Assembly (NCBI GenBank): GCA_039545315.1
Contig: BCIM01000013.1
Coordinates: 248,001 to 312,000 of the forward strand
Length of the DNA: 64,000 nt
Reading direction: 5' to 3'
DNA from: Kondoa malvinella
Lineage: Eukaryota; Basidiomycota; Agaricostilbomycetes; Agaricostilbales; Kondoaceae
The notes under the pieces were generated by a model that was given only the letters and a program-made list of their open reading frames with translations, was not told the origin of the DNA and made no database searches. Each line of letters begins with the position of its first letter. Positions within the stretch are counted from its first letter, which is position 1. This document shows positions 11,705 through 54,057 of the stretch, piece by piece. A program made the position numbers and the translations under genes.

Positions 11705-13855
11705 CTATGCGACCCAGCTATACATCTTCCATAGAATACCAGCGCGTCCCTTTTCTCTACGCGCGATCTGTTCATCATCCGCGATGTCTTCTGGCGTTTC
11801 TTCATGTCTACCCTTGTCAAGATCTATCTCATGTAACTTGGGGAAGGGCGGCCGCTTTATCAGTCTCCAGATGATGTAGAGTAGAGCGAAAGCGGGCAGC
11901 TCGACTGTCAATGATTCAGCGGGTGTCGGCAGAAACACGAATCAGGTAAGCTCACCGTAGCTGGAAACGAACGACAGAGCATCAAAGCCGCCATCGAATG
12001 CAGACCAGCCTTGTACAATGAACGAATCAGGCAAGCTCACCATAGCTGGAAACGAACGACAGGGCATCAAAGCCGCCATCGAATGCAGACTCACCTTGTA
12101 CAATGATGATGAAGGACACAGAAGCGATCACGATGTGCGGCGCAAACTTCCCAGCCGGGTTTCTGAATTTAAGATCTTCAGGCGAGCGGCCTTGAGCTTT
12201 CCATGCGCGTCTGAACCGTAGAGAAGCGATACCAATACATAGCCAAGCGATCTGGTTGCTGACTCCGACTAGGTTTTGCGCTGTGCACTGCATTAGTTCA
12301 GCTGTGCTTCCACGGACTGAGCAAGAAGACTCACCCCATGTAAAGATTTCCGCTGCGCCTCCAGGAAGAAAAGAGATGCCAAAGAAGACCAGAGCCAAAG
12401 ATGCAGTAAAAAGGACGGCTGCCCAGGGTACTCCGTTTCTTGTTGTCCTTAAAAATATCTTTGGCGCCATCTTGACCGAAGATAGACCGAAGAGTATACG
12501 ACTGCCAGCGAACAGTGCATGATTTCCAGCCGATAGTACCGAGGTCAATACGACAGTGTTCATGAAGCTACCGGCGACTCTTGATCCAAGCATCTGGAAG
12601 ACAAGCGTGAACGGCGATGTCGACACTCTCTTCTCTTGCAAATCGGGATAGTTGTACGGTATATTGAAGCCAATGATGATGACTGTAAGGATGTAGAATA
12701 TGATGATACGCCAGAAGACTCTTCGGATGACACGGGGCATTGTCCTTGAAGGATTCTTCGTTTCTCCCGCTCTGCATTTGCGGTCGCTATCAGTCCGGGT
12801 ATCAAATCTGACGGGAAAAGTGAGCCTTACGTTACTCCTATCGACTCGGTCGCACCATATGCGAAAGAGGCTGTGACAAAGAGGGACGCAAAGCCCGCAA
12901 AGCCATTGACAAAGGGAGCAGAACCCAAAGTCCAGTTCTCGCCGCCGACTAGATGACACAGTAAGCAGCGGTATCACATGTTTCAAAAGACACTCACTAT
13001 AGCGGCCTTCAGAGTTTGCACCAACATTGACTGCTATCCCAACAAAAAAGAAGACAACAATCGATGCGACTTTGAGGAGCGAAAGCCAATACTCCAGCTC
13101 GCCATACGCCTTGACGTGGATCATGTTGAGGCCGGTAAGGAAAAAGAAGAAGCAGAGACTTGGAAGCCAGGTCAACTTGTCCGTCCAATATTCCATCAGG
13201 ACTTGAGCGGCCGTGAGATCACCAGCATACGACACGGCGTCATTGACCCAGTAATTCCACCCAATTGCAAACCCAAAAGGCTCGTCCACAAATCGACTCG
13301 AATACACCACAAAGGAGCCGGCAATCGGAAATTCTGTACTGCACGGACATAGATCAGCTGTTGTGCAGATACTAGATGCAGAACAAGTACCTCATTTCGC
13401 CTAAGCACAGCATTACGAGGTAGACCAGAGCTCCAACGAGGGAATAGTTGATCAGTAGAGATCCGGGACCGCCTTGACTAGTTGTCCACAGCAGAGGTCA
13501 GCGGAATTGCAACCGATACTGGAGATGTGACGTACGCCAAACTTCTTCCAGTCCCTGTAAACGCATATTGAGTCAGAATAGGTGCCAATAGCGAAACAAC
13601 TAACCCAAGAACAAGCCGGTACCTATAGTCCCTCCCTGACATGAACGCAATGAGCATCGGAACTGATCGAAAGTCTGTAACACTGAGGCTCACGATCGCA
13701 ATCATCGATATTTGCCTTGAGCTCAGGCCCCGCTTGAGTCCTTCATCTGCGACCGGCTCTACGAAACCCGCTTCGAGTGCTGGTACTGTTGCCGCCTTGT
13801 CATCTAGTTGAGCGTCTTTGACTTTGTGTCCATCAGTTGTCGTTGCGTCTGCCAT
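11705..13855 (-). CDS. Amino-acid permease (YAT/AAT family)
   Basis: Plasma-membrane proton-coupled amino-acid transporter. Ten exons with introns at 13636-13693, 13555-13604, 13478-13535, 13339-13390, 12949-12997, 12772-12830, 12281-12334, 12010-12094 and 11905-11955. Spliced sequence shows the family hallmarks: SSRQISMIAIGGTIGTGLF in TM1, GPGSLLINYSLVGALVY, LCLGEM, then FGFAIGWNYWVNDA, and RVFWRIIIFYILTV. The tail ends in a cytosolic acidic/basic stretch. Introns 12010-12094 and 11905-11955 sit in an 85-bp tandem duplication: the upstream copy of an exon now lies entirely inside an 85-nt intron. Retaining that intron would give a stop after 24 codons and lose the last membrane segment. Substrate range cannot be read from the sequence. 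Confidence 0.93.
11938..12107 (-). repeat. 85-bp tandem duplication of an exon-intron segment inside the permease gene
   Basis: Two head-to-tail copies, 11938-12022 and 12023-12107, differ at about six positions. Each carries the codons for SAFDGGFDALSFVSSY plus the first bases of the following intron. In the copy transcribed second (11938-12022) the exon begins GCTGG; in the copy transcribed first it begins GTGAG, a good splice donor. An intron from that donor (12094) to the AAG acceptor at the start of the second copy (12010) is exactly 85 nt and restores the family sequence VQGWSAFDGG. Confidence 0.9.
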
Positions 13856-21054: not shown

Positions 21055-24000
21055 ATGAACGATACCAGGTGGAAGCCCATCAGTCCGGCCATCCACGGCT
21101 TCTGCATCTTGCCATATGAGCCGCAAGAGGATGCTTTAGATGCCGCCCGACAAATATCGCTCGAGCTGTCTGATGAATTCTATGCTTTTGAAGAGTATGG
21201 CACCGCATGGTACAGAGGCTATGTGATCAAACAAAACAATGCAGCTTGGACAGAAGAGACGAGAGAGCATTTGGACATTGGCGTGTTTCCTAAATCTCAC
21301 TGCAAGATTCGAGGGACTGTGCCAGACTCGCCAGCTGTGCAGCAGGATCCCTTTCGTACCAGCCAATCTGTCACCTATCAATCACCCGAATATGGCCTGA
21401 AGAGAGCTATGCATCCGCTTGAAGAGGAAGACGAAGAAGAATCCAGCTTCCCTCGAGTCCCAGACTCGCCCAACAACTCCCTTGCGCCTTCTGTACAAAG
21501 CCCAACTACACCTTCTAGAACGCGAAAACTCAGTAGCAACCGTAACTCAGTCATCTCGTTACAGAACGCATCGGCCTATTCTCTATCTGGCGCTGACGGT
21601 CGCAGACTCTCATCTGCTTCCTTCGCATCAAGCCATCATACTCAGAATGGTCTATCGTCCCCAGCCTCGGATAGACCAGTACCACCTCTTCCATCTCTTC
21701 GCAGCACAGACGAAACTTTAGCTGGACAAACCGAACCTCTCATTGATGAAATCTCGGCTGCTCTGAGAGAATGGCAAGCTATGATCTATGTTCATCTGAA
21801 AGCCTGCAAATACGCTCTGATAGAAGAAGTCAATGGCTACATCCAAGTCTTGCATGCTGGTCGTCGACAATTGCTTTCGGACTCGCTTTCGAATGAAGAG
21901 ACGATTGCTTTACGTAAAGAATTGGTGCAGGTCTTGCTAAGGGGTAACTTGGCACAAGGGTTGGATGTGATTGTGCGACATCCGGAAGCGGGCGGCTTAG
22001 CAGATGTGGATGGATTAGGACCGAGCAGCATGTCGCCCATCCGCATGTACAGCTTACAAGTCAGATCAGCCTACGCCGCAACACAAAAAGACAGCGGCAC
22101 TACCCATGGGACTGATCTTCTGGCTATTTTACCTTCCACAGCGAGCAATCTCAAGCCATCGGAAAGCAAAATGTCTCAGCTGGACAAGAGCAACTCGGCT
22201 CCTGCCAAGCCTGTTTTCGAACATGTCTATCTCGACTTGCGCGCTTTTGTCGCCAACCCTTGTGATCCTGGTGAACTTTCAGAACTATACTTTTCGCTAT
22301 ACAGCCAAACAGAGTCCAAGTTTCTTACTGGTACGCCGGACTCCTTCATGTTGAGTTAGATCTTGTTGATATGATTATGACAGAGGACTTTTGCGTCATT
22401 CTCAATCACAATGGCGTACCAACCGCAGAAGGACGTTTAGGCCGTATGCGAACTCTGTTCAAAGATCTGAGCGCCTCAGATCTGCAAGACCAGCTCTTTC
22501 TAGTATGCAGAATAGTCAAGAATGGAAGCCTCAAGTCGAATGGACAGCAATTGCAATCATTGCACGAGTACAATGGGTCCAGCACCGAATTATCACCTAG
22601 AAGCTCTGATCGAGAATTTGATTCTGGATCAATTAGATCTGCTACGACGGGCGGTGTCGATAGTTCGATGCATGAAGATTCAACCAACAGTATGCTTTGG
22701 ACTTCTCGTTCTGGCAGACAAACGGTTCGAAGACCTTTCGGTTGCGCCGTTTTGGACCTCACCAACATCCTCAAGCAAGATCATTCCCGTCGAGAAGCCA
22801 TGTCACCTGGTCCTGGACCGTCTTCCAACGCATTTCAACGTGAAGAATACAGCATGCCAATCTTTGTTCCGTACAATGAAGCTACTTTCTCTACTTTGCA
22901 CGAAGACATTATCGCTTCTAGGACAAGAGAATTCACTAGCAGTTCGAGAGCTAAAGTCCTCACTGTTCATGCGCGGGCTCTGCATGGTAGTCTCGACCAA
23001 GTCATAGAACAGAATCAAGGCTTGTCGTTGAGTGAGACTGCAGTCACGCAACGACTTGGCTTTGCAGATGTAGTAGATCCGGATGATGCGCGCAATGATC
23101 TATACAGTCAGTCAGGTGGATTATCGTATGCTTGCGGAAACTGATGTTCGCATTCCAGTCAAGCTTTGGTCCGGTGACTTTCCTTCACAAGGTCTCAATG
23201 CAAGCAATACTGGCAGTCTAAGATTTGGGAAAGGACTACAACAGCTGAATGGGACCTCTGGAAGTTCCAAGTGCATCGAGATCACCGCGGAAGTCCGGGA
23301 TAGAAATGGGTCAGTAATAGAGAATTGCGTTGCGCGAGGAAGCGGAGAGAGCAATGTGCACCGATACACCTCTATGGTCTACAAGGGCAATTCCAAACCG
23401 AGTAGGCAAGTATCTTACAGCTCCTTGCCTTTTCTGATCTTCTGCAGCATTTGGCGAACTATTCAAAATTCAAATACCGCATCACGCTCAGTGTCATATC
23501 TTTCTCACATTTCGCAATCGCCAATGGAAAGATCGGGCTGGTGTCTCGGCTGCAGAACGCTCGCCTTTCGCTTTTGCCTACTTCCCTCTGCTGGTCGAGA
23601 CTACAGCTTTTCTGTCTGATGGATCGCATGTATGTGTTCTCGAGAGATATCATACTTCCTCTCAATCGTGTTGCAGTCTTTGGCCTTATATCAGTACAAT
23701 CGAGCAGCCGAATCACCAGCTATCTATTTCACTGCGCCGCATTTTGCAAGCTCTCAATCAGGGCAGCTACCGCCCCACATTATGCCTCTCCGCGATAGCC
23801 TGATCATTCGCACTTTTCTCTGCTCAAGTAAGTCGGAGTCGAGTCTGAGAGGTTGGTCCTGACGCGTGTTTCCAGCTCAATTCACCCAAAATGAAACACT
23901 TCTGCAACTATTCTCCTGGGAGCAGCGAATTTCGAATCCATCGAACCTTCTGGCTACGCTTACAAGTCTACGATATAGTAGCGAAGCAGAAATTGTCAAG

Positions 24001-27000
24001 CATTTGCGTGCTGTTTTGGATTCTCTTTTTGGCATATTGGCTGCACCTCAAAATGATTCAGGCGATTTCAGTCGGCCAGTCTTCATCAATTTGGTATCAA
24101 TCCTGGGCATTGTGGCAGATCGTCGCTTCCAGAACTTCAAGCCTGTCTTGGACACTTACATCCGCGATCATTCGACAACCTCAATCGCTCATTCGCATAT
24201 CCTGAAAAGCATGCAATCGCTTATTGCCGATCACAACACCAGCGGCGAAGTCGCACAGAACTTACGCTCAGCCCTCAAAGTCATCTCTCCTCTGTTCCGG
24301 ATCATACTGCGATCGCGGGAAATACAGCGAACCCGTAACCTTGGCAGCGGTGTCACTTCAGATCATCTCGAAACTGCTTTCAAGAGGGATGTCGATTCTC
24401 TACTCGCTCAAATTAACGATCTCATGATCTCGAAGACCCCGGCATCTGTCCTTGGCACGCAGGTGCTAGTCCTACAGCACATCGCCGGCATCATTCCTAT
24501 GCTTATCACCATCTTTGGCAATCAAGAATGCGCCAAACGAATGTCAACCTTCTGCGACTGTATATCCAGCTACAGCGGAAAGTCTGCAAGCCGCAAGCTT
24601 CTTCTGCTTGCACAGATAGTCACCAGCCCTTTGCTCGATAGCCCTGCTAATCGGGCAACACTCATTCCTAATCTTGTCGCTTGGCTCAAACCGCATTTCG
24701 TCAAGTATGAGACAGCCTCTATGCAAACATCAGCCGAGGCACGGAACAGCGCTCAAATCAATTGGCTCGAAACCATTCGTCTGGCAAACACTGTTGTTGC
24801 GGCGATAGTCGACAGGCTCCATGATAGTCTGCTCGATCCAAATCTGAAGGCCGAAAAAGATCTCCTCGTACAGGAGCAAGACAATGCAGAGTACAGTCTC
24901 TCGCTCTTACCCCGCATAGTCGATATCTACCTGGAACTCGGCTCGTCCACTTATACGGAAACAATACTGCAAGCGAGAAGTTCTGCCTCGATCATTTCGG
25001 CCAGTCCTGCTGTATTTCCGGTCTCTCACCCCTTTTGGCTTTTATCCAAATACCCGCAATCAACCTCCGACCTTCAAGACCACATATCGACTTTCCGTGC
25101 CGATCAAGGAGAACTGGGCGTAGTCGTTCTATCGCTTCTGCGGATTGTTCCGCCATCGGTCTTTCGGAACTTTGTGGATGCAGCGATGCAGGTTGAGGGT
25201 CGAGAGCGGTTCGCCCGCTTCCTGTCCCAGCTCTTCCGCACCTTGCACTCTCTGCTATCTGGTCAAGCGTATCCCTCGACCTGGCTCAGTGTCAGCTCCT
25301 TAGCCCACTCTGTTGTCATCAAATTAGCGGGGCCCGTGTCTTTCCTGCTCGAAGAGGAATTTGTCCCGCGACAAGCAGTCTCCCACTCGTTCGATTTTGT
25401 CCTGTGGAAGTCGTTCTTTTCGATGTACATGCAAGCTCTTGCCAGCGGGCACCTGGACGTAGAGGACTTCTATCCACAGAAACGCCGCAGCATCTGGAAA
25501 AGTGAGCACGAGGTCATTTTGCTAATTTGCTTGCTGACCGCGCGGTACAGCGACTGGCGACCCTCGTGCAAGCTCTGCTACTAGGCTGCTGAAGCTGTGG
25601 CGCATGCTTGGCTGGCAGCAGCAGCCTATGCGACAAACGAGCGAAATCTTTACTTTTGGCGGTTTCCAAGTGCAGCTTACTCCTGGATTACTCGATCTAG
25701 TGTTGGACCTATGTTTAACACGGAATGACAGCCTGAGGGCGACAGGCACTCGAATGCTCTTTTCGATGATCATTGGCGAGTATGGCATTTCTTCTGACTT
25801 TGCCAAGATACGAAACGCCGTAATCGATAAATTCGACAAGATGTTTTCTCAGCGCAAGAAAGATAGCGTGTGAGTCAGACTGCTTGGCACGACGCAAATC
25901 TTGCTGACCCAAAGATGAAGCTCAAGAGCCATGTTCATCTTACAGCTCAGTGATTTATTCGACGCTGCATCTATCACCCAAAATCTGCGCGATCATGTCG
26001 ACGCCTTCATTACCTCCGCAAACACTTTTCTCGGTGCGCAGATAGTTCTGATCCCATTAACAGCTTGCTGATACGGACCTCGTCAGACCTACTATTCGGT
26101 GTGTCCATGCTGCCAGATGGCGAAGAATTTCAGGATGACCGCATCATATCGACGCTTCGCCTGATGTCTTACATCCGGGATATCTCCAGCCCTTCAGTCT
26201 TTACAAAATACGTTGACCGCCTCAAGTCATATCACGTTAGAGCCAATAATTTCACCGAGGCTGCTCTCGTGCTCAAGGTAAGTAGCATGCTTCCTGTTGC
26301 CGCATGGTCAATGATGACCGTGCTTGTAGCTCCATGCCGATCTCTATAACTTTGACACATCAAATACTGTTGAAGCTATGCCAGACGCAAATCTGCCGAA
26401 ACAAAGCGAATTTTCTCGTAAAGAGACCTTGTATCTCCAAACTCTCGAGCTGTTGGGCAAAGGGACGGCCTACGAAAGTGCTCTTGTGTTGTGCAAGGAG
26501 TTGCAAGAGCAATACGAGACCCAGATCTTCGCTTACCAGCGACTGAGCGAGATATTGGCACATCAAGTATGTCGAAACCTACCCGCAGTTGCAATCCTGA
26601 CTTGATCCGGCCAGAGCGAATTGTACAAGAAAATATTGTCGGAAACAAGACATTTTGCTCAATGCTTTCATGTCGGCTTTTATGGCAGAGGCTTTCCAGC
26701 TGTTTTGCAAAACAAACTATACGTGTACAAAGCGAACGATCACGAAAAGCTAGGCGGGTAAGTACTCTACTCTGCAGTATGTTGCTCGGCTAATATTCAT
26801 CATAGCTTCACAGAAAGGATCCTCAACTTGCACCCAAATGCCACTTTGGTTGCCGAGGATCAGCCGTTGCCCAGCGAAACGTTTGACTCGGATGGGCAGT
26901 ATTTGCAAATCTTTGCCGTCAGTCCACAGCCCGACCGATCTTTCCCAATCTTTACGAATCCAGATGTGCCTCAAGGTATGTCCAGATCAATACTCAAGAT

Positions 27001-34248: not shown

Positions 34249-37200
34249 TTACACTGGCTGAGGCGATTCCGCGCTTTGGGGCTGACTTGAGGTGTTTATC
34301 TCGACTGGTGAAGGGCCAGGCCGGGTGTCAGACGAAACGGCTGCAGAGAGCAAGCTTTGATCGTATTCTGCCGCAAGCTTGGGATCGCGTGTTGCCGACT
34401 GTATCAGGCTGTCGTCCGATGTCCGAAACTCGTCTAGCGAGTCTACCGTCTTGGGCGTGTCTATCACAGAAGGAAAGGACGTCCCTGTTGGCGGTGTGAT
34501 TGCCGCTGGTGGCGTGGAGCGATCGTGACCCACTTTCGAATCAATGTGAAGGCGCGAGGCTACCTTCAAAGCCTTGGCTTGGGCACTTTGCCGATCGAGA
34601 AAAGAGGAGCCGAGGGGTTGTTGGCTCGAGCTGGAGCTTTGTCGTAATCTCTTGAACGAAGAGAGAATTGACATGCTGCCCCATTCTAGCAGCTTTTGCT
34701 GAAGCCATTGCAACGACACCGGTTTGGTGATGAAGTCGTTACAGCCTGCAGCAAGCGCAGCAAGCCTATCGGATTGAAGTGAAGAAGCCGTCAAAGCGAC
34801 GATGATGACAGGTAGCTGACTCGGAGAGGTGACCGGAGACGCACGCTGAATAGGCGGAAGATCAAAAGTGCGTGCTTCAGTCGTCGGAGTGATTTGGCCT
34901 TGAATGTTGTTTGCGTGCTCCATTGCTCTGATTTCCATTGTGGCCGTAATACCGTCTTTAACAGGAAGCTGGATGTCCATCTGGGTGGCAAGCGTCAATA
35001 TGGTTCGGCGGGACAGAATACGGCACTGACCAGAACCAGATGGAAAGCACCTGCTTTCCACTTGTCTACTGCTTCCTGCCCATCTTTAGCCACTGCATAA
35101 CGTATACCCTTCCGCTTCATAAAGGTGGACAGAATAGTTTGGTTGATGGGGTTATCTGTGAGAGCAGGTAAGCTTCGGAAAGCTGTAATCGTGCGCAGAC
35201 TTGCCTTCGACGATCAGCACATTAATAGGTGGAACAGCGACTACAGGGGGCTTGCGGACTTTGGGAGTCTTCTTCGACATGTCCGAGCGAGATGTAGACC
35301 GCCTGTCGCGCTTCTGTACAGCCGGTGCTGCAGACATCGGCGCGGGACTCCCGTCGCCAGAAAAGGGCGTGAGCTGAGGAGCTGCTGTACTTATTGTCTG
35401 GTGCTCGACTGGTGCAGAAAGAGGTGTACTCGATAATAGGCGCGGCGGAGACTGAGCCAGAGGCGATGCAACAGTTGATAGCGACGATAGCGCAGCTGAA
35501 GCGGTAGGCATTCGCGAAAAACCTGGATGTTTTGGACCAGAGGAAGTTGCAGTATCGTCTGACTTCATTGCCAATTCGTTCAAAGGTAGGGCACGAGCTA
35601 CTTCGGCCGGCGGACTCAGGATTGGCGTATCGTGATCTTGCGAGCCAGGCGACAGCGGGTTTGAGGAAGATGTTGAAGCCAGCGGAGCTTCGTCCCCGTC
35701 GAGCGACACGGGACTGCCATCATGCAGATCGTCGCCATTCGTGTCCGCGGGAGCGGGAATGTCAACCTTCTGGCTGCGCAAATCTTCTTCGCTAGGCTTG
35801 GCAGAAAGGTCCGCGGTTGCTAAACGGTCTCTGACCATCCTGCTGCTGCTGGTCGAACCGGCTCTTGATACTCGTGCCAGCATAGTTGATGGCCCGCGCT
35901 TGACAGGCTGGAAGAATAGGCCAGAAGGTTTTCCATCAGGACTCTGAAGCAGAATACCAGCGCTCGCAGTATTACTAAAGTCGGGCGTGGTTTTTGACAT
36001 GTATTCGATGTACTCTCGAGCTTCTGCTGAAGTCGCTCGAGGGCTTGAGGGATTGGACGATGGCTGGATAGTGATAGGTGGTGTAGAAGGACCTGGATTG
36101 AGAGATGCAAGTAGGCTCGAGGGCAGATTCTGCTGCTGTTCGATGCGAGCTTCTGCGAAGGCGGAGTCAAAGTCCTGCTGCAGAGAAGCTGCCGGACTTG
36201 GTCGTCCACTATGCGAGCCAAAGTAAAATTGCCCCTCTGCAGATGATGGAGAAGTAGCGATAGGCGTGAACGAAGGGTCAAGGACGGGCCGTTTGACTGC
36301 AGTATGCATGGTGGTGAGCAGCCGCCGAGGTCCAATAGGCTTTGGCAGAACCAGAACCTCTGGTAAGAAAGAGTTGCCGCTTGCAGTCTTGAATATCGAC
36401 TGAACGATCTCGCGGATAAAGCGATAGTTGCTGGATGAGGTGAAATGGATGATGGCTACCATTGAAGAAGGTTGGATAGTCCGTATCTGCGCTGTAGAAC
36501 GTGTTCGCCGACCAAGACCTGGCCGTTTGTGTAGAATAGTGTTGTTGAGGTGCAGACCGGGTTGACTGGCTTTCACAATTGCAAGCTGACGTCGCAAGAC
36601 AGAGATGTCGTCGTCAATGATAATAAAGGACACTGAGGCATCGAGTTGAGCGGGCACTTTGCCCTCGGCAATGCTGGGAGGTCGATTGCTGGCTTCAGGT
36701 GTGTTGCTGGGCGGACTTTGACTGTCGCTACCGCCGAATCCGGAATCGAATCTGCCTATAGAGTTTCTTGCTTCTGCATTCCTGCTCTTGCTCTTGCTCA
36801 ATTCTGATCGGCCTGTATCGCCTTCCTGCTCTGATGACGTCTCATCTGGTACAAATGCTACGTGACTGATGTCCATTCCCCAAGAGGTCAAGTAGCCTGT
36901 GAGGTGTTTCGCAAAGACACTGCTCTCAGTGGAATGCAAGACAGCCTTCTTACGCTTGAGAAGACTGTCGGCAAACTTGAAGAGCTCTGGCAGAGCTGGA
37001 TCTTTCGCCACATCAGATGTTCGCGACCGTGCTCGAGATGGCAAAGATAAGGGTGTAGGAGGAGGAGGAGACATTGATTCTGGACTTGTGGGGAATGTGG
37101 CTTCGGTTAAGCGTGTTGTTACAGACCAGGTGCAGCGTGTGGAGTTTTCTGCTATACCGCTGCTGAGAGCAAGGTCGAAGGTTTGCAGAAGAGCGGCAAG

Positions 37201-49393: not shown

Positions 49394-49433
49394 CAGTCCT
49401 AAGAGAACGAATGCAGTCCTAAGAGAACGAATG
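49394..49433. repeat. Perfect 20-bp tandem duplication
   Basis: The unit CAGTCCTAAGAGAACGAATG occurs twice in a row with no mismatch, in the 250-base gap between the zinc-knuckle gene and the TBC gene. It is probably a recent slippage event in non-coding DNA. Confidence 0.95.
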
Positions 49434-49495
49434 CAGGTGTAGACTTCCATAGAAATGAGTGTATTCACAAGAGGCGTGTCGGAATGCAAATGGAA

Positions 49496-51890: not shown

Positions 51891-52527
51891 GTCTTGAAAA
51901 ATGGCCAGGCTGTCCAAAAAGACAGAGGTCGCGTCTAGCTCAACGCGTGTATGTTACGTGCTGGGCGTAATGTTGCGCCGATTGAGAGCGTCGTGAATAG
52001 CAGGTCCAGCCTTAGTCGCTTCACAGGGCGTGTATATGGTTCGGGACAACTTCTTTGAGGAAATGGGTCTCAGTAGGCTCACCCAGCCACGGCCACCTGT
52101 ACTGTGTTTGCGCTAACGCTAAGGACGACGCGCTGTTCTCTCTCTTCTTCAAGAAAGCTTCATTATTTCAAATTTTCAATGTTCATCTGTCTCGATTCTC
52201 GAGCGGCTCGAGCGAGCGAGCTCACCCTCTCAACGCTGCGGCATCATAATAGTCTCTGCATGCCTTGTTCTCATCTTTTCTCTGGCTTTTTCTGCGTGGT
52301 CTATCTGGTCTATCTGTCAGCCTTGCGCACGGTGCTGCATTTGTATGCTTCAAATGTCAGCCTCTTGAGCTCGAACCGCGACAGCGATAAGCCTCTGTTG
52401 AGATACCGTCTGGACTTATACCCAAGCACCTATACCGTTGGACTTCATACCAGGGTTTCAAGCTATCACACTTTCGCAAGATAACTTCACAATACTCGCG
52501 CCGAAGACTCCTAATCGCAATCAGCAC
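51891..52527. other. Divergent promoter region between TBC and MYND genes
   Basis: About 640 bases. An open frame that runs into the MYND gene from 52438 lacks an ATG until 52528. Another at 52104-52484 reads like hydrophobic chance sequence. No motif was identified. Confidence 0.45.
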
Positions 52528-53687
52528 ATGGCAACAGCAACATCTTCTCCTTCTCTAGCAAATGCTCGCCTTCAATACCTTCCCGACCACGTCATGGCAG
52601 CGCTTCCGACATTAACATCACATTACTTAGAAGCGCTTGAAACTTTCGATTGCTGGGTGTTTTGTGGAGACGAAGTAGCCTGGCCAGGGACTGAAGTGAC
52701 AGTAACCGACAACAAAAGCCACCAGCGAATCCTTCTGCGGCTCATCTATTGTCGTCTGGTCGCGGAATCGCCTCGTCTCTGCTTTTCTTTCCATCAACAG
52801 ACGTACGCAAAGATGTGGATTGACTCCCAGTACTTCGTCGAGAACACCTTCTTCTGGACGGAATTCGCGCACAGCTTTCTCCCCTCCAGCAATTTTCTGA
52901 GGACCTATAGCGACGACGAAGCTATCTGCATCCTATCTTCGACGATCATCAACTGTTTGTACATGCTTATCTGCGTCCTAGGCGATGCCGATGTAGACAC
53001 AATTGACGCGTTCGTCGCTCAAGAAAATTTTGCACTCGCTCATCGCGTCTTAATTCGAATCTTGGCAATCTTGGACAAGAGAAAGGACCTTTGCGAACTT
53101 TTGAAGGCCAAGGTCAAAACAAGATCATTGTCGTTGTCGCTTCAGGTTCACAACATTCTTTGCTGGACTCCCACTCCGGCCCAGCAAAACGGTATGCCCT
53201 ATCTGCCCTATCTGCCCTATCTGCCGAACGCCATGGCCGCCGCCGCTGCCCTTCGTGTATTACTGGCCGTTCCGATCAATGCTCAAGCGAAGACTTGGAA
53301 TGCAGGGGCCTCGTTATTCTACATAAGCGACAAGACTTTGGCGGAGACGCCATCAGCTGAATTACGTTTCGGCGGTAAGCTTTTTTCGCATGGATCGGAA
53401 GTGTGGCGGAACGCAACTAATGAAGTTAAAAATCTGCGCATCGATGGATTAGCTGCCTGCTTGCACTGCTCTGCGCATTTGCCGCGGAAAGCGCATTTTA
53501 CTGGACAGAGGTCGAAGGACTTTAAGTTCTGCTCAAGGTGTGTACTGCTTATCTGCTTGCTCTCTACTGATGCCTCAACAGCTGTCATGCAGCGGTTTAC
53601 TGTAGCAAGCGATGCCAAACGATGGACTGGAAATTGGGTCATCAGGAGAAATGCTCGGGACGGCAGAAGGTGGCTGCAAGCGCTTGA
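52528..53687 (+). CDS. MYND zinc-finger protein
   Basis: Two exons; a single intron at about 53539-53581 breaks the finger itself. Spliced C-terminus: ACLHCSAHLP, then FKFCSSCHAAVYCSKRCQTM and DWKLGHQEKC, a complete MYND finger (Cys pairs followed by H-x3-C), normally a protein-interaction module. The 330 residues before it are helical and mostly unannotated, with a proline repeat (PYLPYLPYLP) near residue 230 that comes from a 12-base tandem repeat at about 53190-53222. Many fungi have families of such C-terminal MYND proteins of unknown role. If the intron is ignored the frame runs on for a few codons and the finger is lost. Confidence 0.85.
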
Positions 53688-54057
53688 AGAGACTCCTCGT
53701 GAGTCGGCTTCATGACGTGCATGATCGTAGCTCACGGCACTAAACTACAGCTTTGCAACATCTGAATATCCGAATGCTCAGACTATCGAAGCAAAATGAA
53801 GTCAGTCTCAATGCAGGCCCATGCCATTCGTCACAACCCCTTATCGCCGCACTGTAAACGCTCAGAAGGTTGTCTGTGTATATCCATGCACCAGACTTAC
53901 CTCCCTTGGTTTCGAGGCTGGACAGAGCTGCCGTTCTGTTCGTGTGCCTTGCTCGTACATACATGCATTGTCGTCCCTTGCGCGTGTTTCCGAAATCTGT
54001 ACCGCCCTTGGTAGACATTCAGACCAGTTAGAAGGCCAAAGCCATGCCCAAGTCTGA
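53688..54057. other. Intergenic region between convergent genes
   Basis: About 370 bases with no accepted gene; several overlapping open frames of 67-92 codons on both strands look like chance. It should hold two 3' ends. Confidence 0.45.

Follow-up and report, generated by a model that had tools for sequence, protein, structure and literature searches.

A recent tandem duplication across an exon-intron junction and its predicted splicing outcomes in an amino-acid permease gene of Kondoa malvinella

Among described cases of intron gain by tandem duplication, that of the potato RdRp gene (PMC4974935) shares two features with the amino-acid permease gene of Kondoa malvinella reported here, as far as the available part of that paper goes: the duplication crosses an exon-intron boundary, and the new donor is of exonic origin. 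There are 10 differences between copies in potato and 6 in the permease. The potato unit, however, runs from the 3′ part of an intron into the 5′ part of an exon, an arrangement of which the permease unit is the mirror image. Branch point and acceptor were inherited ready-made in potato, whereas the permease donor appears to have been made by mutation and its candidate acceptors are an exonic CAG and an exonic AAG. Splicing was demonstrated by RNA-seq in potato but is predicted from sequence in the permease. Duplication of the Rogers type (Rogers 1989; Hellsten et al. 2011 for ATP2A1, both as presented in the available part of PMC4974935) yields an intron equal to one repeat unit and leaves the protein unchanged. 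The same would hold for the permease if an 85-nt candidate intron were used, and it does not hold for a rival 49-nt cut. In the Rogers type the duplicated exon contains AGGT, whereas the corresponding permease site reads AG|GC.

Introns born of tandem duplication in Drosophila arise at duplicated AG/GY proto-splice sites, according to the accessible portion of the source (PMC2891723), a usage that the 85-nt permease cut would match; in contrast, the permease unit spans an exon-intron junction and lies in a fungal host with very tight intron spacing. Intronization is described as rare in Cryptococcus (PMC2740785), a case that shares with the permease the prospect that, in a basidiomycete, part of an exon may turn into intron. 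A duplicate that keeps the coding sequence does not figure in the excerpt of that report, whereas permease copy 2 preserves it. In the stwintrons of Lipomyces (PMC7138796, also in excerpt) a duplicated donor element gives competing splice choices, as in the permease, but these are introns nested within an existing intron, whereas the extra permease donor lies in a duplicated exon. A literature survey made up mainly of titles and abstract openings returned no duplication across the donor side of an intron, which does not amount to proof of absence. Because the strict AGGT feature is absent, the permease locus would be placed as a variant, with predicted splicing, within the broad class of intron gain by tandem duplication.

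The window analyzed is a 64,000-nt stretch (positions 248,001 to 312,000 of the forward strand of contig BCIM01000013.1) of a host assembly comprising 19.1 Mb in 20 contigs (GCA_039545315.1). A gene for an AAT-family amino-acid permease (PF00324) occupies 11705..13855 on the reverse strand, with its start codon at 13855 and its stop codon ending at 11705; all gene features given below lie on this strand. The gene has 544 codons once an 85-nt piece is excised. Its match to the PF00324 profile scores 430 bits against a curated cut-off of 24.6, which places the protein in the family. The best ten matches in the database come from Sporobolomyces, Rhodotorula and Rhodosporidiobolus; they are 66-71% identical and align over 93-100% of the permease length. 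Among solved structures, 9eyd, a lysine-specific permease, is nearest in sequence. Introns were positioned by eye, guided by family knowledge. Eight introns other than the candidates were placed, of 49-59 nt, six ending in CAG and two in TAG. Seven lie upstream, among them intron 7 (12281..12334, 54 nt); the last, pre-existing intron (11905..11955, 51 nt, GTGAGC...GACAG) has its first 19 nt inside the duplicated unit. The homologue model from Rhodosporidiobolus microsporus carries extra residues (SY/VE) exactly at the position of this last intron; they resemble an unspliced intron, which suggests that the position is old. Permease paralogues in the same genome are too diverged to reveal the presence or absence of an intron at the duplicated position.

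The twelfth-ranked homologue, at 68% identity, bears the label Mycena galericulata although its neighbors in the ranking are from Sporobolomyces and Rhodotorula, and a Coprinellus protein and a second Mycena protein rank slightly below it; transfer, paralogy or contamination could explain this placement. Elsewhere in the window, exons of a DOCK-family protein (Pfam matches DOCK_N and TPR_DOCK) lie at 21055-25584 on the forward strand. Part of a response-regulator receiver domain lies at 34249-35061 on the reverse strand, adjoined by a 761-aa open frame with no Pfam match at E 0.001. Short perfect repeats occur at 49394-49436 (20-bp unit, 2.2 copies, 100% identity) and at 53195-53225 (9-bp unit, 3.4 copies, 100% identity), the latter encoding a Pro-Tyr-Leu repeat in the open frame 52438-53715.

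TRF identified a single 85-bp array at 11937-12106 (2.0 copies, score 303), so that the two head-to-tail 85-bp copies described in the earlier note were recovered one base away from its 11938..12107. Copy 1, which is transcribed first and carries the new donor, occupies 12022..12106. Copy 2, at 11937..12021, has retained the codons for the conserved Gly-Trp as well as the last intron's donor. Both were delimited by TRF and by an ungapped comparison at lag 85, and copy 2 also by the homologue alignment. The repeat unit joins the final 66 nt of the exon to the opening 19 nt of the last intron. At lag 85 the copies are alike at 79 of 85 positions, and the six mismatches agree with the count of about six given previously. 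Three of them are adjacent (12091-12093 against 12006-12008) and constitute the GCTGG/GTGAG change; the other three are single, two exonic, at third codon positions of the normal frame, and one intronic. A chance repeat was ruled out by the TRF score and by the finding that, among 12 arrays in 173 kb of host sequence, no other has a period of at least 30 bp; TRF on one neighboring 10-kb piece returned no arrays. A 170-bp query against the 19.1-Mb assembly found one place in a search that scores best candidates only, and an introner or mobile element, which would be present in many copies, was ruled out on that result. The tandem duplication is genuine, and its recent origin within the permease gene, as previously proposed, is supported. 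It is very improbable that the real genome has a single copy and that the second is an artefact of assembly or haplotype, given the 6 differences in 85 sites between the copies and the lack of any comparable array in the 173 kb.

The ancestral state of the duplicated site was read from an alignment of 120 listed homologues out of 7444 matches. Gln-Gly is kept in 119 of these 120, the remaining row being a gap, and Trp is present in 115, with Tyr in four and a gap in one. In none of the 120 listed homologues are Gln and Gly, or Gly and Trp, separated by an insertion; two of them show a single additional residue two positions upstream. Because Gly-Trp is conserved among the homologues, the GCTGG of copy 2 is evidently the old state and the GTGAG of copy 1 the derived one. 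At the new donor (GTGAGT, 12089..12094) copy 1 reads AAG|GTGAGT where copy 2 has AAG|GCTGGT. Three adjacent changed bases (12091..12093, CTG to TGA in the sense direction) yield the GTGAGT, and the donor-making change in the first copy is thus as the earlier note had described it. The ancestral-like copy 2 reads AAGGCTGG (AG|GC), GT at the site is confined to copy 1, and the duplication alone therefore created no GT donor. An exact 26-mer search of viral and genome contig collections returned no sister locus.

The proposed 85-nt intron (12010..12094, GTGAGT...TACAAG) would restore the 544-aa protein. Its candidate branch CTGAT (12026..12030, adenosine at 12027) lies 67 nt from the donor and 17 nt from the intron end, and stems from the 5′ portion of the old last intron. 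The 49-nt rival (12046..12094, GTGAGT...TTTCCAG) ends in a CAG preceded by a pyrimidine-rich run and leaves 36 nt, or 12 extra codons; its excision would give an in-frame product of 556 aa in which Gln is followed by the insertion AMVSLPDSFIVQ. The sole branch candidate found in it is TTGAT (12066..12070); the adenosine, at 12067, has the donor 27 nt and the intron end 21 nt away. Copy 1 also retains the old donor GTGAGC (12035..12040, GTGAGCTTG at 12040), in agreement with the earlier observation. From this donor, splicing of a 31-nt intron (12040-12010) would yield a protein of 562 aa with an 18-residue repeat. Joining to the last acceptor would give a 136-nt intron, its branch at a donor distance of 98 or 124 nt, and a 544-aa product with Glu for Trp. 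Unspliced, copy 1 brings an in-frame stop and a product of 482 aa, which bears out the stop predicted for retention. The only CTRAY branch adenosine of the 31-nt intron lies 13 nt from the donor, against 30-44 nt in the host, and the 18-residue repeat form was dismissed on that spacing. Mutually exclusive duplicated exons were rejected as well, since the stretch between the copies is this same 31-nt intron. Three in-frame products had been listed earlier: skipping of the first copy (544 aa) and the Glu-for-Trp form hold as reading frames, whereas inclusion through the 31-nt intron is implausible. Six forms were compared against a profile built from the 120 listed homologues, and scored 921.4 bits for the 85-nt cut, 915.5 for the Glu form, 912.0 with 18 and 899.4 with 12 extra residues, 857.5 with both copies skipped and 831.5 with copy 1 retained.

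Intron rules of the host were taken from motif counts with broken or reversed controls, as intron finding by coding potential gave too weak a signal (8 candidates, and in a second run 115 candidates, of which 8 were selected). In 173 kb, GTRAGY donors were counted with a CTRAY branch and the first YAG, using TGRAGY as the control. Distances of 30-44 nt from donor to branch adenosine were found 86 times against 11 for the control, those of 25-29 nt 3 times against 0, those of 5-24 nt 9 times against 6, a small excess, and those of 45-89 nt 13 times against 15. At 90-129 nt the count was 33 against 17, falling to 22 against 16 once donors having a near branch were removed; the excess therefore comes largely from neighboring introns, and some longer spacings may still occur in this host. 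The mode of intron length is 45-54 nt. Host introns are unusually uniform, with the branch adenosine about 30-44 nt from the donor. CTYAY forms a second branch motif, present at 41 of the 327 GTRAGY donors that have no CTRAY and at 5 of 372 controls. For TTGAY in the proper position the figures are 19 of these 327 donors and 9 of the 372 controls. GTGAGT-TTGAY-CAG with near-intron spacing occurs at 139 places, some of which also hold CTRAY, against 16 reversed; TTGAY is at most a minor branch motif.

Acceptor use was counted over the whole genome with the pattern GTGAGT-N22-48-CTRAY-N7-16-NAG and its reversal as the control. With this short gap, CAG was found 1766 times (reversed 114), TAG 1110 (reversed 142), AAG 522 (reversed 150) and GAG 421 (reversed 153); AAG with the donor broken to GTGACT was found 146 times (reversed 168). 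With a long gap, placing the branch 62-86 nt from the donor, CAG was found at 122 places (reversed 113), and at 200 (reversed 144) with the broken GTGACT donor; introns with such a gap leave no genome-wide sign. In a sample consisting of the first 80 of 100 listed places among the 522, AAG is the first AG after the branch in 40, and 36 of these are 44-55 nt long. The corresponding figures for the broken donor are 17 of 40 examined, 7 of them 44-55 nt long, and GAG is the first AG in 4 of 40 examined. Scaling these shares gives about 200 AAG introns beside about 2600 CAG or TAG introns, and therefore an estimated AAG share of very roughly 7%; AAG acceptors thus seem to be used in the host genome. 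Local counts for GTRAGY donors suggest some AAG use: of 136 first AGs, 19 are AAG and 7 GAG, compared with 307 and 175 among 1040 elsewhere. A looser local count for GTRNGY shows no AAG enrichment (51 of 302 vs 275 of 874 elsewhere).

The repeat unit contains the palindrome TTGTACAA, located at 12011..12018, just before the last base of the AAG acceptor, with a twin at 12096-12103, just before the new donor. The two copies can therefore pair, which makes the tandem repeat an inverted repeat as well. When 231 nt are folded, the minimum-energy structure pairs the two palindromes and joins the ends of the 85-nt piece, whereas the centroid fold is without this helix. Among 200 shuffles, 56 equalled the fold of the 85-nt piece by itself and 60 that of the 231 nt, with z-scores no stronger than -0.56 and -0.47, and the end-pairing fold is given little weight.

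The permease departs from only 1 of 152 alignment columns that are at least 95% conserved, and the median among homologues is also 1. Neutral decay was simulated with the ends of the 85-nt piece treated as essential too. At 0.019 substitutions per site, which is half of 3/80, the chance of remaining intact was 1.2% with an assumed indel rate and 16% without indels; at 0.004 with indels it was 36%. The gene seems to be maintained, a reading that depends on an age taken from three differences, and it is argued that some in-frame form would therefore be made.

The reading we put forward, at a little short of an even chance, is a nascent and possibly two-form intron gain in which the 49-nt cut would be the main one and the 85-nt cut a minor one supplying the ancestral protein. 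The 85-bp tandem duplication took in the 3′ end of the exon and 19 bases from the start of the next intron, and the extra 85 bases, left unspliced, introduce the in-frame stop. Copy 1 then gained a strong GTGAGT through three adjacent changes at AAG|GCTGGT, in an order and by a cause that we infer. This donor has two in-frame partners, the CAG 49 nt away and the AAG 85 nt away. The shorter cut would remove a piece of normal host size and add 12 residues beside a putative late membrane helix, which we take from family knowledge to adjoin the insertion point; the longer would remove exactly one repeat unit and restore the ancestral protein. The 49-nt cut is expected to predominate because host intron architecture favors it, its length being the commonest in the host and its acceptor a CAG. 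Against it stand the absence of a CTRAY branch and the position of TTGAT in the short tail of the spacing distribution; a 12-residue insertion at this site is present in none of the 120 listed homologues and lowers the family-profile score by 22 bits (899.4 vs 921.4). Splice signals thus point to 49 nt and protein conservation to 85 nt, and both predicted cuts could be inefficient. A more specific proposal, that the one new donor is spliced to both CAG (49 nt, 12 residues added) and AAG (85 nt), and that rigid donor-branch spacing rather than missing splice sites holds back the completion of duplication-born introns, is unlikely enough to be offered as a conjecture.

The earlier note had instead taken the 85-nt intron (12094-12010) as the main form, with the first copy wholly intronized and the protein unchanged, and this we consider rather unlikely, though a serious candidate. 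Its excision restores the conserved protein exactly and gives the best of the six family scores (921.4 bits), its CTGAT is a perfect branch 17 nt from the end, AAG is apparently used genome-wide (522, reversed 150, vs 146, reversed 168, for the broken donor), TTGTACAA is paired at the intron's ends in the minimum-energy fold, and the gene looks maintained (1.2% under neutrality with indels, 16% without). However, the 67-nt donor-branch distance belongs to a class without genome-wide excess, the length is far from the host mode of 45-54 nt, AAG is a minor acceptor that the GTRNGY local count does not show to be enriched, the CAG lies upstream in the path, and the fold does no better than shuffles (60 of 200) while its centroid lacks the end helix. 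The splice sites, including the AAG ending at 12010, and the unchanged protein on excision hold up, but use of the one-unit intron is unsupported. Because the 85-nt piece is off the host spacing and length and the overlooked 49-nt CAG intron fits the host better, intronization of the whole first exon copy is at this point hypothetical. It is more doubtful still that the gene is mostly disabled, either with copy 1 kept and translation ending at the 482-aa stop or with the 136-nt intron and Glu for Trp, an outcome we hold to be improbable. Both new introns are imperfect by host standards, after a young duplication the remainder of the gene would still be expected to look intact (36% at 0.004 substitutions per site), the Glu form loses only 6 bits (915.5 vs 921.4), and spacings of 90-129 nt number 33 against 17 controls (22 vs 16 filtered). 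Yet a perfect GTGAGT from three adjacent changes is hard to regard as neutral when the other 82 sites show three differences; the permease is otherwise intact, and in the 136-nt intron a donor-branch distance of 98 or 124 nt would be unusual.

Under the preferred reading of a nascent gain with competing 49-nt and 85-nt cuts, the birth of an intron as exactly one repeat unit is a possible component. The locus would be young, a mirror image of the potato case in which both copies can still be read and the splicing outcomes compete. A duplicated splice-like site may not suffice for intron birth, in that the spacing rules of this genome predict a cut other than that of the one-repeat-unit model.
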